Source: Pseudomonadota bacterium (GTDB lineage Bacteria; CALINM01). Taken from it: a stretch of 13,915 nt of DNA. This document shows positions 1,054 through 13,915 of the stretch, piece after piece. The position numbers and the translations under genes are program-made. The stretch is from NCBI GenBank assembly GCA_026415985.1, contig JAOAGA010000026.1, positions 1-13,915 of the forward strand, in the 5' to 3' direction. The notes under the pieces were generated by a model. It did not search any database, was not told the origin of the DNA, and saw nothing but the letters and a program-made list of their open reading frames with translations. Position 1 is the stretch's first letter, and every line of letters begins with the position of its first letter.

Positions 1054-1084
1054 CTTAACCCCCCTTTTTTGTTTCTTAATAAAA

Positions 1085-1112
1085 TTATTAGCAGGTTTTA
1101 AGAAATCTGCAA
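1085..1112 (-). promoter_or_regulatory. Possible core promoter of the octaheme nitrite reductase
   Basis: On the minus strand a poor -35 (TTGCAG, 1112-1107) is followed after 16 bases by TAATAA (1090-1085), about 30 bases before the ATG. The weak -35 with activator-like repeats directly upstream is typical of promoters activated by OmpR-family proteins. This was assigned by eye; the -10 could be shifted by one base. Confidence 0.35.
1091..1110. repeat. Imperfect inverted repeat inside the reductase promoter
   Basis: GCAGGTTT (1091-1098) and AAATCTGC (1103-1110) are complementary at 7 of 8 positions around a 4-base centre. The element covers the proposed -35/-10 spacer, so a bound dimeric regulator could block RNA polymerase. 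If transcription starts further upstream it could instead be a leader hairpin. I do not recognise it as a known FNR, NsrR or HcpR box. Confidence 0.4.
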
Positions 1113-1120
1113 GGTTAATG

Positions 1121-1150
1121 GATGTAAAAATTTGTAAAAGTTTGTAAATA
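1121..1150 (-). promoter_or_regulatory. Three tandem 10-bp direct repeats, probable OmpR-family operator
   Basis: TGTAAA occurs on the plus strand at 1123-1128, 1133-1138 and 1143-1148, exactly 10 bases apart (TTTACA reading toward the reductase). Copies 2 and 3 share the longer TTTGTAAA. Direct repeats at about one helical turn are the usual binding pattern of OmpR/PhoB-family regulators, which bind as head-to-tail dimers. The block ends 8 bases before the proposed -35 of the nitrite reductase and lies 38 bases past the stop codon of an OmpR-family regulator gene. That regulator is the obvious candidate binder, by inference. Confidence 0.6.
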
Positions 1151-1187
1151 AAGGGTGTCTTAAAAAACTTCTTAGAAATTTTTCTTC

Positions 1188-1880
1188 TTAAGAAATCTTT
1201 AACTTATAGCCCTTCTGGGGGACAGTAACTAAAAACTCAGGGTCTTCAGGGTTGTCTTCAATCTTTTCTCTTATATGACTTATGTGGACATCTATGGTTC
1301 TGCTCCATTGGTAAAGTTCCTTTTCTTTCCATAGAGCATTTTTTATCTCATTTCTCGTAACAACTTCGTTTGCCCTTCTTAAAAGATATTTAAAGAGCTC
1401 AAACTCTGTATATGTAAAAAAAACTTCTTTGTCTTTAAGCTTAACTTTTCTTTTTTCTTCATCAACAAAAATATCTTTAGGAGTAATAATATTATTTTTT
1501 TCTACATCTTCATCATATCTTCTCATGACCGCTTTTATTCTCGCAAGAAGCTCGGAAGTGTCAAAGGGTTTAACAACATAATCATCTGCTCCTAACTCTA
1601 AACCTAATATTTTGTCTGAAGTTCTGTCTTTTGCGGTGAGCATGATTACAGGAACCTTACTTTCCTTTCTGATTACCTGTATTATCTGAAAACCATCTAC
1701 ATCAGGAAGCATAACATCAAGTAAAACCAAAGCAAGAAGATCTTTATTCTCACGAAAAATATCGATACCCTTTAAACCACTCTCGGCGGTTAATACTTCA
1801 TAACCCTGAATTTTTAAAACCGCTGACAGAACCTCTCTGATGTCTTCTTCATCATCAATTATCAGTATTGTTTTTCCCAT
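1188..1880 (-). CDS. OmpR/PhoB-family response regulator
   Basis: This 230-residue protein has an N-terminal receiver (about 3-121) and a C-terminal winged helix (about 131-229). Receiver residues are intact: acidic pair Asp9/Asp10, phospho-acceptor Asp55 in LLDVMLPD, Thr82 and Lys104 in VKPF. The winged-helix part has the family hallmarks TYTEFELFKYL, a recognition helix around RTIDVHISHIREKIE (194-208), and a C-terminal GYKL hairpin. The gene starts 26 bases inside the end of the histidine kinase gene, with GAGGT ahead of its ATG, so the two are translationally coupled and almost certainly cognate. The next gene downstream is the octaheme nitrite reductase, with three 10-bp repeats in its promoter. 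I infer that this protein activates or represses that gene. Confidence 0.92.
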   Translation of the reverse strand: MGKTILIIDDEEDIREVLSAVLKIQGYEVLTAESGLKGIDIFRENKDLLALVLLDVMLPDVDGFQIIQVIRKESKVPVIMLTAKDRTSDKILGLELGADDYVVKPFDTSELLARIKAVMRRYDEDVEKNNIITPKDIFVDEEKRKVKLKDKEVFFTYTEFELFKYLLRRANEVVTRNEIKNALWKEKELYQWSRTIDVHISHIREKIEDNPEDPEFLVTVPQKGYKLKIS

Positions 1881-3405
1881 TTTCTACCTCAATCAGTGGA
1901 AGTTTTACAAAAAATGTTGTGCCTTTATTAATTTCAGTTTCAAACCATATCTCTCCGTTATGCATCTCTGTCACATATTTAGCAATATAAAGCCCCAAAC
2001 CTGTACCTTTTTCTCTGTTTTCTCTATCTCTGTGATAGAACTTATCAAAAACCTTTGTTTTATCTTCTTCTCTTATGCCAACACCCTCATCCCTCACCTT
2101 TATTAATGCAAAATTTTCTATTCTTTCAATATCTATAATAACTTCTCCCTCTGGCTTATTAAATTTTATTGCATTATGGATTAGATTTTCAAAAAGATAG
2201 TATAGCATCTCGTAACAGCCATATACCCAAAGGTCTACCGGACAATGTATTTTTATTTTATAGCCACCAAAACTCTGAATAATCTCTTCAATTAGCACTT
2301 TCAAACTAATTTTCTCATTAAGATTATCAGTAATCCCCATATCTAACTGAGCTGATTTCAGGATCTGATTAACAGCCCTTTTCAATGAAGAAACATTTCT
2401 TTTAAGAAGGTTTAAATATTTTTCCTCCTCAGAGCAACTTCCTTTCATAAGGAGATAATCAATACTTGTTGCTATCACCGTTAAAGGAGTTTTTAATTTA
2501 TGACCGATTTGTAAAAGAAAATCAGATTTTTTTTCATTTAGGCTTCTTAATTCTCTCGTTGCCTTTTCTATCTCTTCTTCCAAAATTTCCTTAATCTTTT
2601 TATCCTTTATTTTTGAATCTCTCAGGTTTTCAAAAAGAACAAGAAGTTCTGCCACATTAAATTCACTATCTTCAAGATTTTCATTACCCATAGCGTACTT
2701 GGCAAGTTTATTTATAGGATCTACAATAAACTTGCCGAGAAAAGACCAGAAGCCTAAAAATATTACTATATGAAAAAAGGTAAGTATGAGAAAAAAAAGA
2801 AACTTTGTATTTTTAAGCTTTAATAAAAGCTCATCGGAAGGAAGGAATATGCTCAACGCACCCCTGACATCACCGACATTATAGTTTTTGTGACATTTAA
2901 GGCAGGAATCTTCCACATAGAGTGGTATGATATATCTGAATGTTTTTCCAACCAAAGATGTCTTCTCGCTGATCTTTTTACTGTCAAAATCCAAGAGTGC
3001 TGATCTTTCAAACTCATCGGGGCTGTTTTTAGGATTAACTGCTTTCAGGCTTACAACCCTGAAATGAAAACCTTTCTCTTTCTCAGCCAATTTTGCTATC
3101 TCTCTTGTTACAAAGGCTGGATTCATTTTTACAAAGATTCTCCCCTTTTCATCAACAACATAGGGTTCTTCTAAAAATGGGTTGGGTTCAATATCCTTGT
3201 CTTTTTTTACTAAAACAGCACCATGCAGAGCTACCCATTTTCTTGTAATAAGTATTTGCTGGGCAAGAATCTTTGCAGTTGATTGTAACTCATTCAATAT
3301 TATTTTTTCATATCTTTCTGTTATAAAAAAATAGGAAAGCAGGTAAGAAAAAATAAAGATTAACAATAAAAAAGAAGTAATATAAAATTTAAGGTTTTTT
3401 TTCAT
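1855..3405 (-). CDS. Membrane histidine kinase with periplasmic c-type heme sensor domain (DUF3365/Tll0287-like)
   Basis: This 516-residue kinase has a TM helix near 8-27, a periplasmic domain (about 28-200), a second TM (about 201-222), a short linker with predicted helix (about 260-290), a HisKA domain and a HATPase domain. The periplasmic domain carries CLKCH (168-172), followed by NYNVGDVRGALSIFLP, the pattern of the DUF3365/Tll0287-like fold that binds one covalent heme. The HisKA motif is GHKLKTPL with His302. The N box is ENLIHNAIKF with Asn411, G1 is DEGVGI (439-444), and G2 is GTGLGLYI (467-474). Catalytic residues look complete. Covalent heme outside the membrane suggests sensing of redox potential or a ligand such as NO or nitrite. 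The start lacks a clear Shine-Dalgarno sequence. The 62-base gap upstream holds a GGTTA direct repeat at 13-base pitch (3450-3467) and AT-rich sequence that might be a weak internal promoter. Confidence 0.9.
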   Translation of the reverse strand: MKKNLKFYITSFLLLIFIFSYLLSYFFITERYEKIILNELQSTAKILAQQILITRKWVALHGAVLVKKDKDIEPNPFLEEPYVVDEKGRIFVKMNPAFVTREIAKLAEKEKGFHFRVVSLKAVNPKNSPDEFERSALLDFDSKKISEKTSLVGKTFRYIIPLYVEDSCLKCHKNYNVGDVRGALSIFLPSDELLLKLKNTKFLFFLILTFFHIVIFLGFWSFLGKFIVDPINKLAKYAMGNENLEDSEFNVAELLVLFENLRDSKIKDKKIKEILEEEIEKATRELRSLNEKKSDFLLQIGHKLKTPLTVIATSIDYLLMKGSCSEEEKYLNLLKRNVSSLKRAVNQILKSAQLDMGITDNLNEKISLKVLIEEIIQSFGGYKIKIHCPVDLWVYGCYEMLYYLFENLIHNAIKFNKPEGEVIIDIERIENFALIKVRDEGVGIREEDKTKVFDKFYHRDRENREKGTGLGLYIAKYVTEMHNGEIWFETEINKGTTFFVKLPLIEVENGKNNTDN

Positions 3406-3467
3406 TGTTTAAATTTATAATTTAGACAGATATAACTAAAGAAAAACTCTAACCTGAATGATTAACC

Positions 3468-3875
3468 CTAAGTTTTGATATTCCTGAGAAAATCCCCGAT
3501 AGCCTTGTCTGTCTTTCTTATATGGTTTATTAACCATTTTATTAATAAGTCGTTGAGTTTAAAGGTAGCCAGAAGCATCTCATTTTTGCTTAGATGATCT
3601 TCCTTAATTTTATTAAAGGTTTCAAGAAAATATTTATGTTCTTTTCTATGGGTCTCAATATCAGGATAATTATATACCTGCATATACTGCTCTTCTGTTG
3701 AGAAATGAAAAACTACATATTTTTCTAAAAATTTAACTATATCATTTATAGCGGTTCCCCCTTTTCCCTCCTTACAGGCATCAAAGAGCTCATTAATCTT
3801 GTTTATTAACTCTTTGTGTTGTTCATCAATCTTCTGAACATTTACAGATAAATCATCATTCCAGCTAATTGACAT
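3468..3875 (-). CDS. Bacteriohemerythrin, single-domain
   Basis: This 135-residue protein is a complete, free-standing hemerythrin domain. All seven diiron ligands of the family are in place: His20 (DEQH), His57 and Glu61 (FHFSTEE), His76 and His80 (ETHRKEH), His118 and Asp123 (NHIRKTD). Hemerythrins reversibly bind O2 at a non-heme diiron centre; bacterial ones act in O2 delivery, sensing or scavenging, and some react with NO. The protein is cytoplasmic (no signal peptide). A strong GAGGAG lies upstream of the ATG. The gene is 21 bases downstream of the REC-TPR gene and appears to be the last gene of the tightly packed signalling operon. Its place among sensor genes suggests a sensory or buffering role rather than simple storage. 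Confidence 0.93.
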   Translation of the reverse strand: MSISWNDDLSVNVQKIDEQHKELINKINELFDACKEGKGGTAINDIVKFLEKYVVFHFSTEEQYMQVYNYPDIETHRKEHKYFLETFNKIKEDHLSKNEMLLATFKLNDLLIKWLINHIRKTDKAIGDFLRNIKT

Positions 3876-3896
3876 AAAAAACTCCTCATAATCTTT

Positions 3897-4970
3897 TTAA
3901 TAGCTACTTTGGTTGGTAATCTTATCCAGTTTTTTTTGTAAAATATCTATGTTAACATCTAATATCTTATCATCTGGTTTAATTTTCTTGGCTTCAAGCC
4001 ACAGTTCCAATGCCTCTTTGTAATGCCCTGTCCTGTAAAGTTCGAAGCCCTCCTCAAGTAAAACATTAAAATCTTTACCATCCTTTTTGTTTTCACTTAT
4101 CTTGGCTGTAATCTTTTCCTTAATTTTATTTTCAAGACTTCTGTGAAGCTCCTCTATATCTTTTATCACCTTGGCATCTTCCAACCCGTCTTCTATCTTT
4201 TTAGTAAGCTTATCTATAATCTTTCCACCCAGATCAGCAATTGACTGAATGTGTAAATAGGGATAGTTTGCTACTTCAGTTTGAATTGTTATTACTTTAT
4301 CTTTGATATTTATCTTCGATAAAAGCCCTTTCATCTTAACTGAACTGGAAATACTTTTTTTATAAAGTTTATCACTCCCTACGGGGCTTTGAGAAAAAAT
4401 TATCTTTCCTGCAGAGTTTAATATCTTGGCATTTAGCTCTTCGCTTAGTTTGCCTTCGGAAATCTGATATGTTTCATACATATCATTGTTTACCAGAGTT
4501 AACTGGGTATTGTAAAACTCATTTGAAAGTATCTTTAATATTTTTTCCCTATCGGAATTTGCTAAATCAATACTTATTTTAGATTTTCTCTTTTGCTTGA
4601 CATACTCAATTGCCTTTTCAATCTTAACGGACAAAACCTTTTCAGAAACTGGCTTTATAAGATAATCATAAGCATAATCTGCAAGTAAACTGCTTATTTT
4701 TTCTGGATCATCTACAGATGAGAGAAATATAATGACTGTATCTCTGTAACTGTATAACTCCCTGTAATTCTTTGCAAACTCAATCCCATCAATCTCTGGC
4801 ATCATGACGTCACAGATTATTACCTCTGGCTCTTCACTATCTAACTCAATAAGAGCTGTCTTTGCACTGGAAAAACATTTTACCCTATAACTATCTTTTA
4901 AAAGGGATTCCAAAAAAAATAGGACGTCTTCTGAATCATCTATACAGTAAACTAATTCCTTAACTTCCAA
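3897..4970 (-). CDS. Response regulator with unfamiliar middle region and TPR-like C-terminus
   Basis: This 357-residue protein begins with a receiver (about 4-125): Asp11/Asp12, phospho-acceptor Asp54 (IICDVMMPE), Ser84/Ser85, and Lys106 in IKPVS. There is no DNA-binding, GGDEF or HD output. Residues 150-260 form a region I do not recognise, with a strand-rich segment ITIQTEVANYPYLHIQSIAD (227-246). Residues 262-298 are charged and probably helical or coiled. Residues 301-349 resemble one TPR plus capping helix (EEGFELYRTGHYKEALELW). The likely role is a phosphorylation-controlled scaffold for protein contacts. The start is a TTG with GGAG seven bases upstream; no ATG or GTG lies near the receiver N-terminus. 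It overlaps the upstream gene by 11 bases. Confidence 0.8.
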   Translation of the reverse strand: MEVKELVYCIDDSEDVLFFLESLLKDSYRVKCFSSAKTALIELDSEEPEVIICDVMMPEIDGIEFAKNYRELYSYRDTVIIFLSSVDDPEKISSLLADYAYDYLIKPVSEKVLSVKIEKAIEYVKQKRKSKISIDLANSDREKILKILSNEFYNTQLTLVNNDMYETYQISEGKLSEELNAKILNSAGKIIFSQSPVGSDKLYKKSISSSVKMKGLLSKINIKDKVITIQTEVANYPYLHIQSIADLGGKIIDKLTKKIEDGLEDAKVIKDIEELHRSLENKIKEKITAKISENKKDGKDFNVLLEEGFELYRTGHYKEALELWLEAKKIKPDDKILDVNIDILQKKLDKITNQSSY

Positions 4971-5502
4971 TCTCTTTCTCCAGCATCTTTGTTGATATAA
5001 TTATTTCCTCTTTCTCAAGAACAGATTGTGGCATGATATAAATCACAGTATAATTGCTTCCTTTTACCTCAAACTGCTTCACCACTAACTTATCAAAGCT
5101 ATTTATCTCAAAGGTTATATAATCAAGGGAGTAATTTGGAAACAGTCTGTTAAATTTATCTCTCATCTCAATTATGATAGAAGAAACGGCGCTTAATAAC
5201 TCAGGGTCATTGACATTGTGGTAAGCGAGAGGTAATCCCGCCGAATCAGTAATGAGCCCAAGTTTAAAACCAGCTCTCAGGCATGTCTTTTTCAAAATCT
5301 CCGTTAATCTGTCCTCTTTATAGGTTAAACCGGTTAAATCGATTGATTTCTCTTCTTTGACAATGTAAACTTGTTCTGGCTTAACCTGCTCGGTTTCCGC
5401 CTCCTCTATGAGAACTTCCGCAGAAACAGCTCTCTGTCTCGGACTCTTTATAAATTTCTCGAAATATTTTTTTGCTTCATTAATCTCAAAATAGTTCAGC
5501 AT
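4960..5502 (-). CDS. Roadblock/LC7-like protein with N-terminal extension (divergent)
   Basis: This 180-residue protein has a charged N-terminal extension (about 1-60, including a Glu/Val-rich low-complexity stretch) and a roadblock-like domain at about 65-178. Supporting residues are GLITDSAGLPLAY (82-94), the long helix ELLSAVSSIIIEM (101-113), and the strand pair YITFEINSFDKLVVKQFEVKG followed by YTVIYIMP. That matches the beta-alpha-beta-beta-beta-alpha order of MglB/roadblock folds. It differs strongly from the canonical roadblock protein encoded at 10919-11287. Roadblock proteins in bacteria bind or activate MglA-type GTPases or act as dimeric scaffolds; no such GTPase is visible here. 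The gene overlaps the ParA gene by 17 bases and the REC-TPR gene by 11, so it is made with them and is a likely partner. The family call is from pattern, not a profile search. Confidence 0.72.
   Translation of the reverse strand: MLNYFEINEAKKYFEKFIKSPRQRAVSAEVLIEEAETEQVKPEQVYIVKEEKSIDLTGLTYKEDRLTEILKKTCLRAGFKLGLITDSAGLPLAYHNVNDPELLSAVSSIIIEMRDKFNRLFPNYSLDYITFEINSFDKLVVKQFEVKGSNYTVIYIMPQSVLEKEEIIISTKMLEKEIGS
4978..4981 (-). promoter_or_regulatory. Ribosome binding site deciding a TTG start
   Basis: GGAG (minus strand, 4981-4978) lies seven bases before the TTG at 4970. It supports the rare start codon of the REC-TPR gene, which otherwise has no initiator before its receiver domain. Confidence 0.6.
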
Positions 5503-6277
5503 AGTCTTTATCTACCTCTTCATTTTTTTCTCTCTCAAGAAGCTCCAAGGCTAACTCGAAATAATCCCTTTTTGCATCGAAGTTTCTGCTCAAAAGAAAT
5601 TGCGGAACTCCTTTAATATTTGAAGTCTCAAAATCTTCTGAATAGGCTATCATCTTTTTAAAAATCAGCTCTTCGGGGATTATCTTTTTTAACTCCTGAA
5701 GCATATTCTTTTCCTGCTCGGTGCCTCTGTACATAGTAATCAGAATACCGTCCAAGGCAAGTCCGCTGTTCTTTTCTGCCCTTATCTTATCCATAACCTT
5801 GAAAACAAGAGGAAAAGATTTAATAGATAAGATTTTTAAAGTAGTTGGTATTATAACGGAATCAGAGACACTCATATAGGTATATAATAATGAGTTCATT
5901 GAGTAGGATGAATCAATTATAATATAATCAAAAAATTCCTTTAGTTTATTTATAACAATTTTAATCAGCTCAAGTTGCTTCTCGTCTTCAAAACACTCAA
6001 AATCATCACTTTCAAGATTACCAATGCCCAAAACACCAAAATTTTTATTCTTTGCATATAGAATTACCTCATTAAGTTTCGCCTCTTTCTTAATAACATT
6101 GATTAATCCTCTAAGGGTCTTATCTCTGAGATTCACTGACATTGATATTCCACCCTGAGGATCTCCGTCAAAAACAAGAACCCTTTTACCGATAATACTT
6201 AGACAATAACCTAAGTTTAAAACAGTTGTTGTCTTTCCAACACCACCTTTTGCGCTTGTAACTAATATTGTCTTCAC
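5486..6277 (-). CDS. ParA/MinD-family ATPase, orphan
   Basis: This 263-residue SIMIBI-class ATPase has a deviant Walker A, KGGVGKTT (10-17), with signature Lys10 and P-loop Lys15. Next come FDGDPQGG (36-43, ParA-type Asp-x-Asp-Pro-Gln) and Walker B YIIIDSS (118-124, Asp122). The usual DCPP or DTPP after Walker B is replaced by DSSYS. Such ATPases dimerise on ATP and position DNA, chemoreceptor arrays, flagella or other cargo. No ParB, parS-like repeat or replication gene is nearby, so plasmid or chromosome segregation is unlikely. The position between a REC-DUF4388 and a roadblock gene suggests positioning of a signalling complex, by inference. The start is GTG, forming a GTGA overlap with the upstream stop and preceded by GGTGAGG. 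It has no extended N-terminal HTH region, as in the small ParA type. Confidence 0.88.
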   Translation of the reverse strand: MKTILVTSAKGGVGKTTTVLNLGYCLSIIGKRVLVFDGDPQGGISMSVNLRDKTLRGLINVIKKEAKLNEVILYAKNKNFGVLGIGNLESDDFECFEDEKQLELIKIVINKLKEFFDYIIIDSSYSMNSLLYTYMSVSDSVIIPTTLKILSIKSFPLVFKVMDKIRAEKNSGLALDGILITMYRGTEQEKNMLQELKKIIPEELIFKKMIAYSEDFETSNIKGVPQFLLSRNFDAKRDYFELALELLEREKNEEVDKDYAELF

Positions 6278-7191
6278 TTTTCCTCACCTTTTATTTTTAT
6301 TCTCTTGTTCTCAAACAAATTTTTCAAAATCCAGATACCTTCTTTTAAATCCAACGGATAGAGAGATAACAGTTCTAAGATGTTTACCTCTTCTTTTGTT
6401 AAGTTAAATTTTGAGCTTAAAGACTTATCCATTATGATTATAACTGAGTTTTCTTCAAACTCCGGCTGTATATCTCTCTTGAGCTCGTCAATATAAGAAA
6501 GACAATCCAAAAGCACATCTGAAATCCTAAACCCCTTAACATCTTTCACTGCAAAATCAAAATCTACCTCAAACTTCCCATAGTTAAACAACAAAATACG
6601 TCTGAGGGCATCCAAACCAAGAAAATTTTTATATCTGATATCGGCGAAGCTACCATTTGCTATATCAATCTCACCATCAATATCTAATAACCTAACCTTA
6701 CCTTTTTTCTTATTGATATCAAAAAACTGTAAAAGGTCAACAAGAGTAAATCTGGCAAGATCCCCTTTTAGTAAATCGTCTTCTTTTATTTCCTTTGCCC
6801 CGGTGTTCTTTTCATATCTTCTCAAAACTGCCCTGACCCTTGCCAAAACCTCAGCCTTCTGAAAAGGCTTGGTTATGTAATCATCAGCACCCTCTTCCAA
6901 ACCCTTTATCTTGTAATTTATATGATCGTGGGAAGTAAGTAAAATGACACCCGTATTATTGAAAAGAACATTATTTCTGATTTTTTTCAAGACGTCAAAA
7001 CCATTCATCTCTGGCATATTCAAGTCTAACAATATAACATCCGGATTGATTGAAGAAAGGTCATTTAATGCCTCCACCGGATTTTGATTGTAGCTTACCT
7101 CAAAATCAGATAGCTTAAGATAGTCGGAGAGAATCTCAATAACGGACACATCATCGTCTATTATGTGTATTTTTTTTGTCTGCTCCTTCAT
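6274..7191 (-). CDS. REC-DUF4388 (PATAN/PatA-type) response regulator
   Basis: This 305-residue protein has a receiver at about 6-125 with Asp12/Asp13, phospho-acceptor Asp56 (LLDLNMPE), Thr86 and Lys108 (ITKPF). Residues 141-212 match the DUF4388/PATAN pattern: LKGDLARFTLVDLLQFFDINKK, then KVRLLD, and a strand/helix segment LGLDALRRILLFNYGKFEVDF. That domain occurs in PatA of cyanobacteria and in many delta-proteobacterial regulators, and mediates protein interactions rather than DNA binding. The tail (about 222-303) is an unassigned, mainly helical region. The gene overlaps the kinase gene by 4 bases (ATGA) and the ParA gene by 4 bases. The upstream PAS kinase is the likely phosphodonor, and the output may act on the ParA or roadblock proteins. 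Confidence 0.88.
   Translation of the reverse strand: MKEQTKKIHIIDDDVSVIEILSDYLKLSDFEVSYNQNPVEALNDLSSINPDVILLDLNMPEMNGFDVLKKIRNNVLFNNTGVILLTSHDHINYKIKGLEEGADDYITKPFQKAEVLARVRAVLRRYEKNTGAKEIKEDDLLKGDLARFTLVDLLQFFDINKKKGKVRLLDIDGEIDIANGSFADIRYKNFLGLDALRRILLFNYGKFEVDFDFAVKDVKGFRISDVLLDCLSYIDELKRDIQPEFEENSVIIIMDKSLSSKFNLTKEEVNILELLSLYPLDLKEGIWILKNLFENKRIKIKGEEK
6282..6288 (-). promoter_or_regulatory. Strong ribosome binding site for the GTG start of the ParA gene
   Basis: GGTGAGG (minus strand, 6288-6282) sits four bases before the GTG at 6277, within the end of the upstream coding sequence. It confirms the non-ATG start and shows translational coupling. Confidence 0.65.
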
Positions 7192-8906
7192 AATTTTTCC
7201 AAACCGAGTCCCTGAATTTCATCTTCTTTTATGATAATATTTGCAAAATCATATCTTTTGCCTTCAGAAGATATGAGCACAATCTTAAGTTTATCATCAT
7301 TCAGATTTTTTAAAAAGTCCTCTATCTCTTTATCAAGGTATTGGCCATAAACAAATATATAATCCGGCTTTTCCAAACCATAGATTCTTTTCAACTCATA
7401 GAGGTTTTTAGTTATGTAAACATTGATACCGAATGATTTCAGCCTTTCCTGAAGAGTGTTTATAATACTGTTAGAGGGGTCAAAAATTACAGCTGATAAA
7501 GCATTGGGAACTCTGTTGGCATCCTTATATATTATTAATGAAAAGACATTTCCGCGTCTGTCATCTCTTTCTTTAATCTCAAGTTTCCATTTATGAAGAG
7601 AGATATATTTCTGAGTAATATATAACCCAAGACCAAAACTGTTTTTTGTTTTAAAGTCAGAGTAAAAGGGTTCAAAAATTTTTTCCCGATCTTGTTTGCT
7701 AATGACATTGCCTTCATCTTTAAAATTTATAAAAATAACATCATCAGAATTGATATATTCTACGGAAACTGTCCCACCTTCAGGAGTATGTTTTATCGAG
7801 TTTTCAAGAATATTATTTATAATCTCTTCAGTTTTTATAACATCACAACCAATAGGCTCATCCTCTCCAAAGGTAATAAATTTTATCTTTACATTTTTTT
7901 TAATAGCCATTGCTTCAAAGCACCTGATACTGTCTGATAGAAGATAATAGATATGACATCTGGAAATCTTTAAAATATCTAAATTTTGCTCCACCTTAGC
8001 CAGAGTTATTGTTTCTTTAATAAAGTTACTCATAGAAAAGGCAATCTGCAATGATCTTTCCAGATAGTCTTTATAGTTCTCCCTGTTTTTGGCAAGCTCA
8101 AGATAATTTATAATCGAGTTTAAAGGGCCTTTCAGATCATGAGAGATTATGCTTAACATATTGTAAAATTGCCTATAAAGATTTTTTAGTTCATCTTCTC
8201 TTGTTTCTGCTTTAGTTTCTGAATACTTTAACCTTGAGAGATTCATATGGGTTGCTACAAAACCCGCTATCTTCCCCCTGAAATCAAAAACGGTGGTTAT
8301 AAATGCAAAAACGGTCACTTCTCTGCCATCTTTTCTTCTGTTTATTACCTCACCGGAATAGTTCCCTATATTCTTATCAAGGATAGAGTTCCATATCTTT
8401 TTATAAACATCCGGTGACTGTCTGAAAGACTTAAGAATTCTTGGGTTTGTGCCTACGACCTCTTCGAGACTATAGCCATAGAAATCAAGAAAAGACCTGT
8501 TGGCATCCAAAATATTACCATCTATATCGGTGTAAAACATTGGAAGAATATTATTGATAAAGTTTTGATACAGAAATAATAGTTTGTTCCAGACACTTAT
8601 TCTTTCTGTAAGATCTTTAAAAAAACATCTAAGATACCTACCATCTTTGACAAATAATGACTCGAGGGTTGAACCGTTATTAGTTGTCAGATAGGCCCTG
8701 TCAAACTCCTTTCCTTCAAGACCATATATAACATCCATCAAAATTTTTTTTGAGTTATCCTCAAAACATGATAATAAATCACATTGGGGTATAAAAAATG
8801 CGCATTTATCCTCACAAACGTTTATTATTTCCAGTTTATCATTTACTATAATCATCTGCCATTTTTCCATCTCCATAACTATAGAAGACATCAGTTCTTT
8901 ATTCAT
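7188..8906 (-). CDS. Soluble PAS sensor histidine kinase with C-terminal pseudo-receiver
   Basis: This 572-residue cytoplasmic kinase starts from the ATG at 8906. An in-frame GTG at 8930 would add 8 residues, but only the ATG has a well-spaced Shine-Dalgarno sequence (TGAGGT). Order of parts: a short PAS-like region (about 12-100); a clear PAS/PAC (about 110-227: YTDIDGNILDANRSFLDFYGY and a PAC with RRKDGREVTVF); HisKA with SHDLKGPL (His256); an N box (NNILENSIKH, about 363-373); G1 changed to DEGNVI, so the second glycine of DxGxG is a valine; G2 SFGLGLYI; then a receiver-like tail (about 470-565). In the tail the phospho-acceptor position is a tyrosine (Tyr520 in PDYIFVYG), so it cannot be phosphorylated in the normal way. 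There are no TM segments. It overlaps the HD-GYP gene by 8 bases and the REC-DUF4388 gene by 4, and probably phosphorylates the latter. Confidence 0.87.
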   Translation of the reverse strand: MNKELMSSIVMEMEKWQMIIVNDKLEIINVCEDKCAFFIPQCDLLSCFEDNSKKILMDVIYGLEGKEFDRAYLTTNNGSTLESLFVKDGRYLRCFFKDLTERISVWNKLLFLYQNFINNILPMFYTDIDGNILDANRSFLDFYGYSLEEVVGTNPRILKSFRQSPDVYKKIWNSILDKNIGNYSGEVINRRKDGREVTVFAFITTVFDFRGKIAGFVATHMNLSRLKYSETKAETREDELKNLYRQFYNMLSIISHDLKGPLNSIINYLELAKNRENYKDYLERSLQIAFSMSNFIKETITLAKVEQNLDILKISRCHIYYLLSDSIRCFEAMAIKKNVKIKFITFGEDEPIGCDVIKTEEIINNILENSIKHTPEGGTVSVEYINSDDVIFINFKDEGNVISKQDREKIFEPFYSDFKTKNSFGLGLYITQKYISLHKWKLEIKERDDRRGNVFSLIIYKDANRVPNALSAVIFDPSNSIINTLQERLKSFGINVYITKNLYELKRIYGLEKPDYIFVYGQYLDKEIEDFLKNLNDDKLKIVLISSEGKRYDFANIIIKEDEIQGLGLEKL

Positions 8907-10152
8907 ATTGAACCTCACAGTAATACTCACGGGATATCTTATTAATCAACTCTCTTAGATCCTGTTTAATTTTTGATATCTTATCAACAAGTCCCCTGTC
9001 AAGTTTACCATTATTGGCGGAATCCATAAGTATTTCGATGGTCTCTTCGAGAGACAGTGCGGATCTGTAGGGCCTCTTTTCCAAAAAGCTTGCCAGTATA
9101 TCGCAAATCATGAGTATTTTTGAAGAAATTGATATCTCATCTCCTTTCAATGACCGGGGATAACCACTGCCATCTATCCTCTCATGATGATTTGAGGCTA
9201 TATCGGCAATCTCCTGAAAGTCTGAAATATTATTTAGTATTTTGCGGGTAAAGAAAGGATGAAGTGAGATTATCTCCCGCTCCTCTTTGTCAAGGGGCCC
9301 CCGCTTCTCAAGTATTTCCACAGGAACAAAAATTTTTCCCAGATCGTGTAAATAACCACTAATATATAAAAGATTTTTTTCATGCTCAGAGAGCCCTAAA
9401 TAATCACCTATCAAATAGGCTACCTTGGCAACAAAGACTGAATGACATTTTGTAAAACTCGAATGAGAATCAATTATCTCACCGAAGAACGGAACGGTTT
9501 CTTTCAGCTCAACCTCATCTAAGTATATGGGGTTAATGAAAAAGGTCCTGACAAGTGTTTTGAAATCCAAATCTCTTATAAAGAAAAGATTAAGCCAAAA
9601 CTCTTCATAGTTTTGTATCTTGTCAAGAAAAAGATCAGCAAGTTCAGGAGAAAAGTTTGTTCCCCTGTTGTTTTTAATTAAATCAATAACAGCCTTTTTC
9701 CCTTCCTTTATATCATAATAGTTACTGCAGTTTATGACAAAGTTTACCGATATCCTGTCGGATAAATTGATAATATGAGATATAACAGGAACTTCTCTAT
9801 CTAAAGATTTTGCGTTACTCCAGCTTAAGTGGTGAAAATTGATGGACTCTGCCAGATGGGATAGATATTTATATTTTTGAACAATTTTAGCTCCTGCCTG
9901 TTCATGGTCATAATATTTTTTAGGTATGGTTTCCAGAAAAGAGGTTACTTCTTTCTGCTTTAGCCTGACAACACCAATGTCATGCAAAAGTGCTGAAAGT
10001 AATACGTCCTCTGCCTTCAAACCATTGTTTTCCCATTTACTAAATATTGTAAGAGCGGTATAGGCAACCATCCTGCTGTGGAAATCAAACTTCGGATTTA
10101 TGCCATCAACCGCCCGGGTAATACTGAAAACAATCTCATTTAAGTTATACAT
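8899..10152 (-). CDS. Tandem HD / HD-GYP protein, probable c-di-GMP phosphodiesterase
   Basis: This 417-residue protein carries two HD domains. The first (about 20-180) has His25, His57-Asp58 (LLHDIG), His83, His107-His108 and Asp132 but no GYP motif. The second (about 225-400) is a full HD-GYP: His237, His269-Asp270 (LHDLGK), His298 (HPFF), HHERIDGSGYP (322-332), and Asp351. HD-GYP enzymes hydrolyse cyclic di-GMP to pGpG or GMP at a di- or tri-iron site. The first domain keeps most metal ligands but lacks the GYP loop that contacts substrate, so it may be regulatory or use another ligand. There is no TM segment or receiver. The gene begins 3 bases after the ODP gene ends, with no own Shine-Dalgarno sequence, which implies coupled translation and possible functional linkage to the diiron protein. 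Confidence 0.88.
   Translation of the reverse strand: MYNLNEIVFSITRAVDGINPKFDFHSRMVAYTALTIFSKWENNGLKAEDVLLSALLHDIGVVRLKQKEVTSFLETIPKKYYDHEQAGAKIVQKYKYLSHLAESINFHHLSWSNAKSLDREVPVISHIINLSDRISVNFVINCSNYYDIKEGKKAVIDLIKNNRGTNFSPELADLFLDKIQNYEEFWLNLFFIRDLDFKTLVRTFFINPIYLDEVELKETVPFFGEIIDSHSSFTKCHSVFVAKVAYLIGDYLGLSEHEKNLLYISGYLHDLGKIFVPVEILEKRGPLDKEEREIISLHPFFTRKILNNISDFQEIADIASNHHERIDGSGYPRSLKGDEISISSKILMICDILASFLEKRPYRSALSLEETIEILMDSANNGKLDRGLVDKISKIKQDLRELINKISREYYCEVQYE
8912..8917 (-). promoter_or_regulatory. Ribosome binding site fixing the PAS kinase start
   Basis: TGAGGT (minus strand, 8917-8912) lies five bases before the ATG at 8906, inside the last codons of the HD-GYP gene. It favours this ATG over the in-frame GTG at 8930, which has no comparable site. 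Confidence 0.6.
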
Positions 10153-10155
10153 AGT

Positions 10156-10905
10156 TTAAATTGCAAATGAGTATCCATGACCAATCAGATCTACACCACA
10201 TTCCAAATTATACAACCAATCGTAAAACTTGTTAACATTTTCTTTGCCCTTAATAATAGCTCCGTGTTGAGGAGCGATGGTTTCAATATCCAAACTTTTA
10301 ACCAAATCAACCCAGATTTTTAAAACCCTGTTTGACGCTATATAACGTTTGTGAAAACCTTCCATATACTTAACATGCTCTTCAAAATTATCCACGAAAA
10401 TTTTTTCGGGACCCAAGGATGCCCCTAAGTCGCCCGAATATAAAATTTTTGAAACGGGATCATAGACCTGAAAGTTTCCGGGGGAATGTAAGAAATGAGC
10501 AGGGATAAACTTTATCTCAACGCCACCTAAACTGACTGACCCTCCGCTATCGGGAATAGGAACAAGTCTGTCAACAAGATAGTCGTCTACTCCAAAATGT
10601 GGGATAAACCTTGTCCACAGGCCTGTAATATAAGCCTTTGCATCTGTTACCATTAGCCAGCCATTGGCAGCAGCGACAATATCCGGATCCTGATGTGAGA
10701 AAAATATATACTTAATCTTTCCTGTAGATATGATTTTTCCTATCTCTGACAAAAGTTTAGGATAAACCTTATGTCCGCCGGGGTCAAGTATCATAGCCTC
10801 ATCCTGATGGACTATTATGTGCTGGTTTGCCTGAACCATAGCCCCTGAGGTAAGCTCATTATACAAAATATTCTTGTGTTCACTATTTTCAAACAAAGAT
10901 AACAT
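10156..10905 (-). CDS. ODP-type diiron metallo-beta-lactamase-fold protein, standalone (no flavodoxin domain)
   Basis: This 249-residue protein matches the N-terminal diiron half of flavodiiron proteins (FprA/NorV). Likely ligands are His71, Asp73 and Asp75 in SHQDPDI, His140 (HFLHSPGN), Asp158 (YSGDLGA) and His214 (PQHGAII). The family consensus H-x-E-x-D-H is changed: the Glu is Asp73 and the following His is Ile76. The flavodoxin domain and any rubredoxin are absent, so electrons cannot come from an internal FMN as in O2/NO-reducing flavodiiron enzymes. Standalone proteins of this kind (oxygen-binding diiron proteins, ODP) have been linked to bacterial chemotaxis as O2/iron sensors in Treponema. 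A sensory role fits the surrounding signalling genes. AAGGAG precedes the ATG, and the upstream roadblock gene ends 13 bases away. A minor NO/O2 reductase with an external donor remains possible. Confidence 0.87.
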   Translation of the reverse strand: MLSLFENSEHKNILYNELTSGAMVQANQHIIVHQDEAMILDPGGHKVYPKLLSEIGKIISTGKIKYIFFSHQDPDIVAAANGWLMVTDAKAYITGLWTRFIPHFGVDDYLVDRLVPIPDSGGSVSLGGVEIKFIPAHFLHSPGNFQVYDPVSKILYSGDLGASLGPEKIFVDNFEEHVKYMEGFHKRYIASNRVLKIWVDLVKSLDIETIAPQHGAIIKGKENVNKFYDWLYNLECGVDLIGHGYSFAI

Positions 10906-10918
10906 AGGCTTCTCCTTT

Positions 10919-11287
10919 TTAACCGAGGATTTTCTTTACTTCTTCTGCGGTTCTCTGCATATCAAGAAAAAGCAGACCCAGCTTTGCCTCTTTCCTTGCC
11001 AGGGCAACTAATACCGCATGTGCACCCGCATGCATAAGCACTATAAAACCAAACTCACCTTTAACAAAAATCTGCTCCAACTTCCCTCTTTTCAGCTCAA
11101 GTCCTATCCTGTCTCCGATTGATAGCATTGCGGAACTCATCGCAGCAACCCTTCCTTCTTCAATCCCCTGCTGAAGGGCACTTGCAATAATAAGCCCATC
11201 TTCAGAAACTATTGCTGAACCTTCAATATCACCGGAACTTGAAAGTAACCCTTGCAGAGCCTTGTTTAACTCGTCTATTCTTGCCAT
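10919..11287 (-). CDS. Roadblock/LC7 (MglB-like) protein
   Basis: This 122-residue single-domain roadblock protein shows the family pattern: an N-terminal helix (LNKALQGLLSS), IEGSAIVSEDGLIIAS (21-36), the central helix GRVAAMSSAMLSIGDRIGLE, strands EQIFVKGEFGFIVLMHAG and AVLVALA, and a final helix. It resembles MglB-type proteins that act as activators or scaffolds for Ras-like GTPases in polarity and gliding systems. No MglA GTPase is present in the window. The alanine-rich helices are unlike the divergent roadblock protein at 4960-5502, so the two are not recent duplicates. It is the first gene of the minus-strand operon, with a strong Shine-Dalgarno sequence (GGAGGAG) and a good sigma-70-type promoter upstream. 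Confidence 0.9.
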   Translation of the reverse strand: MARIDELNKALQGLLSSSGDIEGSAIVSEDGLIIASALQQGIEEGRVAAMSSAMLSIGDRIGLELKRGKLEQIFVKGEFGFIVLMHAGAHAVLVALARKEAKLGLLFLDMQRTAEEVKKILG

Positions 11288-11317
11288 TTTCTCTCCTCCT
11301 TTTTTTTTCTATTTATA

Positions 11318-11346
11318 AAGATATCTTAGGTCCTATTTTCTGTCAA
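11318..11346 (-). promoter_or_regulatory. Sigma-70-type promoter of the signalling operon
   Basis: On the minus strand TTGACA (11346-11341) is followed after exactly 17 bases by TATCTT (11323-11318), about 30 bases ahead of the roadblock ATG. A small inverted repeat, TTAC-N6-GTAA (11348-11361), lies just upstream of the -35 and could be an operator half-site pair; that is weak. Confidence 0.65.
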
Positions 11347-11397
11347 GTTACCACCAAGTAAAAAGTTCAGGATATTAATAAGCCTACTCAAAAAAAT

Positions 11398-11425
11398 TTG
11401 ACAATTAAATTTTTAATGGCATAAT
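11398..11425 (+). promoter_or_regulatory. Sigma-70-type promoter of the bacterioferritin gene
   Basis: TTGACA (11398-11403) and CATAAT (11420-11425) are separated by 16 bases, 28 bases before the ATG. The spacer contains an inverted repeat ATTAAA-TT-TTTAAT (11404-11417). It may be an operator or just AT-rich sequence; it does not match a Fur or PerR consensus well. GGAGG (11442-11446) is the ribosome binding site. The promoter diverges from that of the signalling operon, with the two -35 boxes about 50 bases apart. Confidence 0.65.
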
Positions 11426-11453
11426 TTTAAATAAAAACAACGGAGGCGAAAAA

Positions 11454-11918
11454 ATGAAAGGAGATGCAAAAATTATAAAAACACTTAACTCACTATTATC
11501 AGATGAGCTTACCGCAATTAGTCAGTATATGGTTCATGCAGAGATGTGTGCCAACTGGGGTTACAAAAAATTACATGAACATTTTGAAAAAAGGGCATTT
11601 ACAGAAATGAAGCATGCAGAAAAACTTATTGAAAGAATACTATTCCTTGAAGGCAAACCAATCGTATCAAATTTGAAAGAGATGCATATCGGTAGTGAGG
11701 TTCAAAAACAGTTAAACAGCGATTACTCATTGGAACTTTCTGCTGTTAACGCATACAACGACGCGATAAAATTAGCAAGAGAGCTGAATGATAACGCCAC
11801 AGCAGAGATACTTACCAATATTCTAAATGATGAAGACAGACATGTAGATGAGATTGAACAGTTAAGAGACCAGATAAATCAGCTCGGGATTCAGATATTC
11901 CTTTCAACACAATTTTAA
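11454..11918 (+). CDS. bfr: Bacterioferritin
   Basis: This 154-residue protein has normal family length. The ferroxidase centre is complete at the standard positions: Glu18, Glu51, His54, Glu94, Glu127 and His130. Met52, the axial ligand of the heme b shared between subunits in bacterioferritins, is also present (FTEMKHAE). It should assemble into a 24-subunit cage that oxidises Fe(II) and stores it as ferric mineral, lowering Fenton chemistry. It has its own promoter and ribosome binding site and is followed after 17 bases by a UPF0173 hydrolase gene, probably co-transcribed. It diverges from the diiron/redox signalling operon, which hints at a shared response to iron or oxygen, though no common operator is obvious. 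Confidence 0.94.
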   Translation: MKGDAKIIKTLNSLLSDELTAISQYMVHAEMCANWGYKKLHEHFEKRAFTEMKHAEKLIERILFLEGKPIVSNLKEMHIGSEVQKQLNSDYSLELSAVNAYNDAIKLARELNDNATAEILTNILNDEDRHVDEIEQLRDQINQLGIQIFLSTQF

Positions 11919-11935
11919 AAACGCGGGGTGCAAAA

Positions 11936-12625
11936 ATGGTTAAAATAACCTACCATGGACATGCCTGTATAGAGCTAAATGATGGTGAATACGATATTAT
12001 TTTTGACCCATTCATCACTGGAAATCCTGTAACCAGGGCAAATCCGGAAGATATGAAACCTACCGCAATACTAATAAGTCATGGCCATGGTGATCATTTA
12101 GGAGATGCAATAGATATATCAAAAAGGACAGGGGCTTTAATCATAGCCCCCTTCGAACTGGCAGATTTTTGTCAGAAAAATGGTGCAGTCAATGTCCACC
12201 CTATGCATATAGGAGGCAGTTACAGTTTCAACTTTGGAAAAGTAAAGCTCACTCAGGCACTCCACGGATCAGCCTTTGTTACACCTGATGGCACTCACTA
12301 TACTGGTAACCCCTGTGGTTTTATCGTTAATTTTGGTGGTAAGTGCTTCTATTTCGCAGGAGACACGGGACTTTTCGGTGATATGAAAACTATCGGTGAG
12401 AACAATGATATAGATATAGCTTTTTTACCCATCGGTGATAACTTTACTATGGGACCGGAGGATGCCATTAAGGCTTCTAAATTACTTCAGGCTAAAACAG
12501 TGATACCCATTCATTATAATACATGGCCAATCATAGAACAGAATCCTTACGATTTCCAAAACAGGCTAAAGGAGATTGGTATTGAAAGCATTGTTATTCC
12601 GTTTAACAACTCAATTGAGGTCTGA
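11936..12625 (+). CDS. UPF0173 metal-dependent hydrolase (metallo-beta-lactamase fold)
   Basis: This 229-residue protein has the normal length for UPF0173. It starts MVKITYHGHACIEL, the usual opening of this family. Metal ligands are SHGHGDHLGD (His49, His51, Asp53, His54), His110 (ALHGSA), Asp143 (FAGDTGL) and His193 (PIHYNTWP). The fold binds two metals, usually zinc, and hydrolyses small substrates; the physiological substrate of UPF0173 is not established. It is unrelated in motif detail to the ODP-type protein on the other strand. It has a GC-rich ribosome binding region (CGGGGTG) in the 17-base gap after bacterioferritin. Co-transcription with bfr is likely but does not define its role. 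Confidence 0.9.
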   Translation: MVKITYHGHACIELNDGEYDIIFDPFITGNPVTRANPEDMKPTAILISHGHGDHLGDAIDISKRTGALIIAPFELADFCQKNGAVNVHPMHIGGSYSFNFGKVKLTQALHGSAFVTPDGTHYTGNPCGFIVNFGGKCFYFAGDTGLFGDMKTIGENNDIDIAFLPIGDNFTMGPEDAIKASKLLQAKTVIPIHYNTWPIIEQNPYDFQNRLKEIGIESIVIPFNNSIEV

Positions 12626-12710
12626 ATTTTTTTTAAATAAACTGACTCAGGCAAATTCATTATCCTTTACTCTCTTGATATTAGAAGAAGAAATAAAGTA
12701 AACTTATGGA

Positions 12711-13328
12711 ATGATTATTACCTTTGAAGGTATCGAAGGCTGTGGTAAATCTACTCAAATAGAAAAGTTTAAGGAAAGCCTTAAAAAACTAAAGCTTGAT
12801 TATGTAACTTTCAGAGAGCCGGGCGGGACAGAGTTATCTGAAGAGATAAGAGAGATTTTACTCAACAAAGATTTAGATATCTCTCCACTCTCTGAACTCT
12901 TACTCTTTGAATCTGCCAGGGCAGAACTTATAACAAAAAAAATATTACCTGAAATTGGGAAAAAAATCATTATTATCGACAGATTTATTGATTCCACAAC
13001 TGCATATCAAGGTTACGGAAGAGGAATTCCTATTGAGATAATATCAAAATTAAATGAGATAGTGGTTGGTGATATAAAAATTGACAGAACCTACCTTCTT
13101 GATGCGCCTATTGAAATTTTAGAAAAAAGAAACTCTCACAAAAAAAAGGACAGAATAGAGAGAGAAAGCTTTGATTTCCATAACAGAATCAGAATGGGTT
13201 TTCTCAAAATAGCTCAAAAAAACATTGATAGAGTTCTTATAATTGATGCGACGAAAAGCGTTGAGGAAATACAAAAAATAATTTTAGAGGATTTTTTGAA
13301 GATTTATGGATATTCAACCACAGGGTAA
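12711..13328 (+). CDS. tmk: Thymidylate kinase
   Basis: This 205-residue enzyme phosphorylates dTMP to dTDP with ATP, an essential step of dTTP synthesis in the cytoplasm. The P-loop is GIEGCGKST (7-15). The dTMP site is FREPGGT (34-40), DRF (90-92) and STTAYQGYGRG (95-105). The LID region is at about 140-152. The start is the ATG at 12711; an ATG five bases earlier opens only a two-codon frame whose TGA overlaps the true start (ATGGAATGA), and the Shine-Dalgarno sequence is weak. The gene overlaps holB by 23 bases, the common tmk-holB arrangement. The 85-base gap before it holds no clear promoter or GC-rich terminator. Confidence 0.95.
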   Translation: MIITFEGIEGCGKSTQIEKFKESLKKLKLDYVTFREPGGTELSEEIREILLNKDLDISPLSELLLFESARAELITKKILPEIGKKIIIIDRFIDSTTAYQGYGRGIPIEIISKLNEIVVGDIKIDRTYLLDAPIEILEKRNSHKKKDRIERESFDFHNRIRMGFLKIAQKNIDRVLIIDATKSVEEIQKIILEDFLKIYGYSTTG

Positions 13329-13915
13329 TAGATCTGTATTAAAAATCTTGGAACGGCTTTCTGCAAATAAAAAGATACCCCACGCCTATATCTTCTCCGG
13401 CAGGGAAGGGATAGGAAAAAAGCTCTATGCCCTCTTTTTTGCAAAGATGCTAAATTGTTTGGCTGAAAAAGGTCAGAAACCTTGTAATGTCTGCAGTAAT
13501 TGCATAAAGCTCGGTAAAAATATCCATCCCGACATAAAGATTATATCTACAGATAAGAAACAGATAAAGGTTGAGGAGATAAAATCTGCAATAAGTTTCA
13601 CAAACTCATCACCTATTGAAGGAAGGTATAAGTTTATAATAATAGACGACGCCCATAAAATGAACCAGTTTTCTTCCAACTCTCTCCTTAAAACACTTGA
13701 AGAACCCCTTTCTGACTCAATTTTTATACTAATAACAGATAATGATAAAAACTTATTGCCAACTATATTATCCCGATGTGTTAAAATTTCCTTCGGACCT
13801 CTTACTGAAAAAGAATTAGAAGAAATTCTTATACAGAAAGGTTACAGAAAAGAACAGATTTTTCAGATAGTTCCCTACGCCAACGGTTCCGTAAAGATAG
13901 CGGAAGATCTGCTAC
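13306..13915 (+). CDS. holB: DNA polymerase III delta-prime subunit, N-terminal 203 residues (cut by window edge)
   Basis: Read from ATG 13306, inside the end of tmk, the frame stays open to the right edge. Hallmarks of the clamp-loader delta-prime subunit are PHAYIFSG (25-32), a P-loop-like GREGIGKK (32-39), a zinc-binding cysteine set Cys51, Cys60, Cys63 and Cys66, a Walker-B-like IIIDDAH (111-117), FSSNSLLKTLEEP (122-134), and the SRC motif (156-158). The P-loop ends in Lys rather than Thr/Ser, consistent with this subunit not hydrolysing ATP. It helps load the beta sliding clamp during replication. Roughly the C-terminal third is missing. Confidence 0.93.
   Translation, partial: MDIQPQGNRSVLKILERLSANKKIPHAYIFSGREGIGKKLYALFFAKMLNCLAEKGQKPCNVCSNCIKLGKNIHPDIKIISTDKKQIKVEEIKSAISFTNSSPIEGRYKFIIIDDAHKMNQFSSNSLLKTLEEPLSDSIFILITDNDKNLLPTILSRCVKISFGPLTEKELEEILIQKGYRKEQIFQIVPYANGSVKIAEDLL

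Follow-up and report, generated by a model that had tools for sequence, protein, structure and literature searches.

What purpose might bring two diiron proteins, roadblock proteins, a ParA-type ATPase and several two-component signalling proteins together on one strand of DNA? The question is raised by a 13,915-nt stretch (the window) from a Pseudomonadota bacterium of the lineage CALINM01 (assembly GCA_026415985.1, contig JAOAGA010000026.1, positions 1 to 13,915), part of an 18.9-kb contig from a metagenome-assembled genome (MAG) with 84% completeness. All nine open reading frames of positions 3468-11287 lie on the minus strand, where a first interpretation made from the letters alone (the sequence-only reading) had placed them as an operon, and the features described below are on that strand unless stated otherwise. 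The junctions, which measure +13, +3, -32, -4, -4, -17, -11 and, ahead of the last gene, +21 nt from 5' to 3', agree with the overlaps of 4-32 bases and gaps of 3-21 bases that it had counted, and its domain assignments for eight of the genes were borne out by Pfam and NCBIfam. Comparison of gene order shows that eight genes can be regarded as one inherited signalling unit, running from a roadblock gene, RB1, through genes for an oxygen-binding diiron protein (ODP), a protein with an HD-GYP domain, a histidine kinase (HK), a receiver (REC)-PATAN regulator, a ParA ATPase and a second roadblock protein, RB2, to a REC-PATAN-TPR protein. The ninth, encoding a hemerythrin, is a local addition.

A scan for close relatives of the ODP, with one genome per species, yielded 56 loci. 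These are mostly from MAGs, so that absences carry little weight, and the phylum group of the searched genomes is taken from the search group that drew them. The full order RB1-ODP-HD-GYP-HK-REC-PATAN-ParA-RB2-REC-PATAN-TPR recurs in L133, and all but its last gene in L134, both from the search group for which a Desulfobacteraceae genome was the seed. L052, from Myxococcota, and L127, from the Myxococcota search group, keep the eight-gene order with the HD-GYP protein and kinase fused, as they also are in L075 and L134. Two relatives from the family of the window genome were among the genomes searched; the family relative L039 (CALINM01) has RB1-ODP-HD-GYP-HK in the order of the window up to the end of its contig; in G001 the contig stops within the kinase gene, with the best ParA elsewhere in that genome just 31% identical. 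A short version, RB1-ODP-REC-PATAN-ParA-RB2, is found in L040, L044, L045, L060 and L068. Short versions are spread over additional Desulfobacterota and Myxococcota: runs of these five genes are present in Desulfobacteraceae, Desulfobulbaceae and Desulforhopalus, the cultured Desulforhopalus sp. IMCC35007 being one bearer, and further Myxococcota have the order HK-RB1-ODP-response regulator-ParA. Conservation of the set, which the sequence-only reading had asked for at least among close relatives, hence extends across phyla for eight of the nine genes. Where flanking sequence sufficed (35 loci), ParA accompanies the ODP in 14 of the 18 loci with RB1 directly upstream and in none of the 17 without it. 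Distance matrices of five of the module proteins from ten loci are correlated (r 0.61-0.93, with the L127 RB2 read in the wrong frame), which is consistent with joint inheritance, although common host ancestry would give the same. The distribution of the unit is sporadic: good RB1 matches occur in 10/193 genomes of the Myxococcota group and good ODP matches in 11/247 of the Desulfobacteraceae-seeded group, and not every one of these genomes bears the full unit. The sequence-only reading knew of no named system with this set, and the open-access literature that we searched, subscription papers lying outside the search, likewise held no description of it.

The first two genes define the input end of the unit. 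RB1 (10919..11287) encodes a 122-aa roadblock/LC7 protein (Pfam Robl_LC7, E 5.9e-14) that is 56-65% identical to the product of the gene directly upstream of ODP in other phyla. An RB1 homologue is encoded in 15/15 genomes tested via these loci, including an Aquificaceae genome in which it is unlinked; the RB1 profile (A4) took in a paralogue from the window genome, C161, so its match counts overstate ODP-linked RB1, most matches being without an adjacent ODP. The ODP itself (10156..10905; 249 aa) has a metallo-beta-lactamase fold and is assigned to its family by Pfam (ODP, E 2.6e-74; PF19583, 249.7 bits against a cut-off of 27.2). In sequence it is closely related to the solved O2-binding ODPs 6qrq (E 5e-75) and 6qnm (E 5e-69), from Treponema denticola and Thermotoga, and in the PDB it also matches the nitric oxide reductase 1ycf. 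Residues H71, D73, D75, H137, D159 and H214 are invariant across 15 sequences; presuming, by analogy with flavodiiron proteins, that they ligate iron, the window ODP keeps every predicted iron ligand of the solved O2-binding ODPs.

The Treponema ODP acts via a methyl-accepting chemotaxis protein (MCP) (PMC7666581, PMC6978683). Chemoreceptor-like open reading frames, read from sequence, also adjoin the distant ODPs of L005 and L006; the window and the cores of the other module loci contain no MCP. In the ODP tree, all 30 RB1-adjacent ODPs fall inside one 51-row set (99/97), separate from the chemoreceptor-adjacent L005 and L006 and from the main Aquificaceae group. Therefore, RB1 has replaced the chemoreceptor as the operon partner of the ODP.

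The neighbours of odp in other loci bear on the signal. In L134 (9912-12806) rb1-odp is immediately preceded by cydA-cydB, which have the same orientation, and in the Aquificaceae loci L053 (3249-4585) and L074 (3297-4639) odp and a SCO1/SenC gene share 4 nt. Together with the orthology and intact presumed ligands of the ODP itself, these oxidase-linked neighbours give good support to the O2/redox input that had been proposed from the sequence-only reading. It is also conceivable that the ligand is NO, peroxide or Fe(II), the unit then serving as a switch for nitrosative or iron stress. This we consider unlikely, as the nearest solved homologues are O2-binding ODPs and oxidase-linked neighbours occur in other loci, whereas the features that would favour it, apart from the flavodiiron fold signalled by the 1ycf match, are seen in the window genome only: a bacterioferritin gene upstream of the unit, and a next operon bearing a Tll0287/haem-Cache kinase, a domain with nitric-oxide-sensor properties (PMC12889525).

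Pairs of ODP genes lie close together in L040, L044, L054, L067, L076, L079 and L169, the second copy of the Desulfobacteraceae loci L040 and L044 forming its own branch of the tree, and an ODP relative (L094:3185-3973) occurs on a contig that binning assigned to a Pyrodictiaceae archaeon. Beside the Aquificaceae odp in L053 (1068-3171) stands a conserved, divergent three-gene block, in which a methyltransferase gene is joined by two genes (products of 360 and 128 aa) that have no Pfam match, with similar blocks in L048, L049, L066 and L074.

At the other end of the unit, ParA and RB2 appear to be closely tied. The 263-aa ParA/MinD-superfamily ATPase (5486..6277; AAA_31, E 4.5e-33) carries the deviant Walker A motif KGGxGK[T/S] as KGGVGKTT; its best solved relatives are Soj/ParA proteins, and the NCBIfam equivalog models for MinD, ParA-partition, BcsQ and RepA all score below their cut-offs. 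RB2 (4960..5502; 180 aa) has no Pfam match, and was characterized by orthologue alignment, structure prediction and Foldseek as an N-terminal helix, conserved among orthologues, followed by a disordered linker and a roadblock domain. When it was folded together with eight homologues (AlphaFold, AF2), its C-terminal domain reached a pLDDT of about 90, the model matched MglB by Foldseek with E 2.4e-7, and its best matches in the PDB were the MglB structures 3t1r, 1j3w and 6hjm. RB2 thus has a predicted roadblock fold nearest MglB, and what had been guessed to be a divergent roadblock protein is correctly named; both roadblock proteins of the unit are MglB-like, RB1 by Pfam and RB2 by structure.

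The two genes share a frame-shifted overlap (17 nt in the window, 5486..5502), and the same layout is found in 15/15 loci across phyla, with 17-47 nt in the others for which the ends were measured. The shared bases encode both the C-terminal hydrophobic pair of ParA (-LF in the window) with its stop and the N-terminal motif of RB2, mostly [S/F]S[E/D]; selection on -LF is consequently not assignable, and we set aside the idea that it is an independent docking peptide. In view of the fixed overlap, it is very likely that ParA and RB2 are produced jointly and function as a pair. The literature implicates roadblock proteins in the regulation of NTPases and reports MglB genes in the vicinity of PATAN genes (PMC4316618); the only such NTPase within the unit is ParA. 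Two fusions adjoining ODP genes suggest the same logic of a roadblock acting on ParA. In a Competibacteraceae MAG an AAA_22 ATPase-roadblock fusion (L059:8517-9926) precedes ODP and a gene of the OmpA family, and in a Chloroflexi MAG, which has six RB1-type matches, a DUF4388-roadblock fusion (L047:2534-5307) is followed by tandem RB1/ODP genes. The gene content, the overlap and the ATPase-roadblock fusion all fit the earlier suggestion that a ParA ATPase stands where Mgl systems use a Ras-like GTPase.

Between these two pairs lie the genes of a predicted phosphorelay and a cyclic di-GMP (c-di-GMP) enzyme. The kinase (7188..8930; 580 aa; PAS_9, HisKA, HATPase_c) is a cytoplasmic PAS protein whose phospho-acceptor motif SHDLK is kept in 6 loci, and whose degenerate C-terminal receiver has no receiver match. 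The 417-aa tandem HD/HD-GYP protein (8899..10152; HD_5, E 1.4e-39, plus a second HD) has an N-terminal domain without GYP and a C-terminal one with HDLGK and HHERIDGSGYP; the motifs HDxGK and HHExxDGxGYP are present in the window, L039, L133, L052 and L127, and altered in L075 and L134 (2/7 loci), so that the c-di-GMP hydrolysis previously assumed for this protein is supported in part.

These observations bear on whether the same unit, with the same O2 input, has c-di-GMP and biofilm or exopolysaccharide as its output, ParA being an on/off switch like BcsQ or FleN. The presence of the HD-GYP protein within the unit and its fusion to the kinase in several loci would accord with this, as would the inclusion of BcsQ (PF06564, 35 bits) among the family models matching ParA; in a cyanobacterium, c-di-GMP has been found to govern the direction of pili as well (PMC9090330). 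However, Desulfobacterota and many Myxococcota versions without HD-GYP keep RB1-ODP-response regulator-ParA-RB2, the HD-GYP residues are not universal, and no exopolysaccharide or cellulose gene adjoins the unit among the annotated neighbours. We therefore judge this output to be improbable.

The two response regulators of the unit lack a DNA-binding domain. The REC-PATAN (REC-DUF4388) regulator (6274..7191; 305 aa) combines a receiver (Response_reg, E 2.5e-28) with a DUF4388 domain (26.8 bits, cut-off 25); the model for the latter, PF14332, which we take to be PATAN, matches Synechococcus among the controls. In the 357-aa REC-(PATAN)-TPR protein (3897..4970; Response_reg, E 8.7e-20; TPR_2), the alignment (A5) and an AF2 model reveal that receiver and TPR are separated by a worn PATAN/DUF4388 domain, which is clear in orthologues (31.6 bits for DUF4388 in that of L052); a fold search with the model gave chiefly receiver-domain matches among the 50 matches listed. 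In Synechocystis the pilus motor PilB1 is a binding partner of PATAN-receiver proteins (PMC7690835, PMC9090330), and PilB of Myxococcus is recruited to the pole by a TPR protein and a pseudo-receiver protein (PMC11580455).

Gene order and composition, the folds, the overlapping frames of ParA and RB2 and the roadblock in the place of a chemoreceptor partner give the unit a firm outline, within which we put forward, tentatively and with nearly an even chance of being right, an O2/redox-gated switch wherein the phosphorelay and the ODP-roadblock pair govern the ParA ATPase and PATAN adaptors act on type IV pili. The signal would run from O2/redox to ODP-RB1 and the kinase, from these to phosphorylated REC-PATAN and ParA-RB2, and on to the machine, with the steps after the ODP being the inferred ones. 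The ODP would take up iron and bind O2, or report redox or iron state, as in T. denticola, and pass the signal to RB1, a roadblock dimer in the position held by the MCP in chemotaxis. The PAS kinase would phosphorylate both DNA-independent regulators, and the HD-GYP protein might tune c-di-GMP locally. RB2, as the dedicated partner of ParA, could set its ATP state through either the N-terminal helix or the roadblock dimer, on the model of MglB with MglA and of the partner peptides that act on other ParA proteins, and the ParA cycle would place or switch a complex within the cell. Given the PATAN precedents, the regulators may be adaptors to that machine, for which the type IV pilus motor is the likeliest candidate, and O2 would then decide whether pili are active and at which site, i.e. 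surface aerotaxis.

The sequence-only reading had left the cellular machine unnamed. PilT scores above cut-off in 14/14 genomes tested, and PilT and PilB-family genes occur in module genomes; FliG was not found in 5/10 carriers, including the window genome and that of L133, with MAG gaps possible. These results speak against flagella and are compatible with type IV pili, which thus fit better as a putative output. They also bear on the idea that flagellar motility or chemoreceptor arrays are what the unit adjusts, with a ParC- or FlhG-like ParA placing the array or flagellum: the known function of ODP in Treponema points that way, and in L068 an MCP gene lies two genes past the unit, but with no MCP in the module itself such a role appears very unlikely. 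A chance neighbourhood of unrelated signalling genes is scarcely credible, and is refuted by the conserved gene order, since, common as every family is by itself and apart as RB1 and ODP are located in Aquificaceae, the order is the same across phyla, the overlap is fixed and the distances are correlated.

Several points weigh against the proposed O2-gated control of pili. No pilus gene was seen in any module locus and PilT is common in these bacterial groups, both of which weaken the link to pili. L068 has lost the signature lysine of ParA and L081 both lysines, so that the ATPase cycle may not be universal, and the altered HD-GYP residues likewise count against the proposal. The DUF4388 score of the window REC-PATAN protein is barely above the cut-off and its receiver precedes PATAN, the reverse of the cyanobacterial PATAN-REC proteins. 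Finally, the ODP signal might be NO, iron or peroxide. In sum, the O2/redox-gated positioning system first suggested for the nine genes is partly supported: there is support as regards conservation, O2 input and the ParA-roadblock pairing, in part as regards c-di-GMP, and none as regards the hemerythrin.

The unit resembles several known systems in part. It shares with the ODP-MCP sensor of T. denticola and Thermotoga the ODP family, the diiron ligand set and a signalling adaptor as operon partner, but this partner is a roadblock instead of an MCP, and a kinase, two PATAN regulators and ParA are added. In common with the Myxococcus MglA/MglB system (RomR, SgmX, FrzS) it has MglB-fold roadblocks, DNA-independent receivers, a TPR protein and a P-loop NTPase; in contrast, this NTPase is a ParA ATPase, there are two roadblocks, and an ODP sensor is present. 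It is neither an Mgl system, as there is no Ras-like GTPase MglA among the nine genes, nor an ODP-MCP pair, as there is no MCP. A genome-wide PF00025 search for MglA is unspecific and picks up ordinary translation GTPases. The conservons of Streptomyces (CvnA kinase, CvnB roadblock, CvnD GTPase) are likewise conserved operons of kinase, roadblock and P-loop NTPase, but their NTPase is of another class, and the present unit has ODP, PATAN regulators and HD-GYP and no CvnC-like gene. Its regulators resemble the cyanobacterial PATAN-CheY proteins PixE, PixG and LsiR in the fusion of PATAN to a non-DNA-binding receiver, differing in the REC-PATAN order and in O2/redox instead of light as input. 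With the positioning ATPases McdA, PpfA/ParC and Soj, ParA shares the deviant Walker A and a dedicated partner gene adjoining it, the partner here being a roadblock and not ParB, McdB or a CheW-like protein. The unit would work most like a conservon or Mgl module with ParA standing in for the GTPase. Elsewhere, G064 has a separate roadblock-GTPase pair, and the second roadblock gene of the window genome, C161, has aroQ and a peptidase gene as neighbours, not mglA.

It is possible, though somewhat doubtful, that the unit typifies an undescribed class of spatial control, in which roadblocks act on ParA rather than on a Ras-like GTPase and a diiron O2 sensor sets the assembly site of type IV pili or another machine. 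If so, the ParA/MinD class of ATPases would join the Ras-like GTPases, the known partners of roadblock proteins, in pairing with them; a diiron O2 sensor known from chemoreceptors would have been rewired into another behaviour; and an unnamed gene set recurring in Desulfobacterota, Myxococcota and a little-known lineage would be accounted for.

The last of the nine genes (3468..3875) encodes a co-directional 135-aa bacteriohemerythrin (NF033749, 128 bits against a cut-off of 84). Its homologues are absent from every other module locus; it was accordingly rejected as a module member and stands outside the conserved unit. An anti-phage defence function was also rejected, since PADLOC gave only generic and weak matches. 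As to the single good promoter proposed for the operon, a candidate sigma70 site, TTGACA-17-TATCTT, lies at 11318..11346 (10/12 in a consensus scan), and a putative ribosome-binding site, AGGAGGAG, at about 11291-11300 ahead of RB1; the promoter is plausible only, because the scan returned 63 such sites against 51.8±8.5 expected by chance. The 3' end of the operon is not fixed, as the minus-strand run carries on, 62 nt past the hemerythrin gene, into the haem-Cache kinase gene. In this next operon (1188-3405 and 1-1053) the Tll0287/haem-Cache histidine kinase, which has a CLKCH motif, is accompanied by an OmpR-type regulator and a multihaem cytochrome c552-like protein. On the other side, the bacterioferritin gene (11454-11918, plus strand) is divergent from the unit across a 166-nt spacer, and the two may possibly be under shared iron/O2 regulation.

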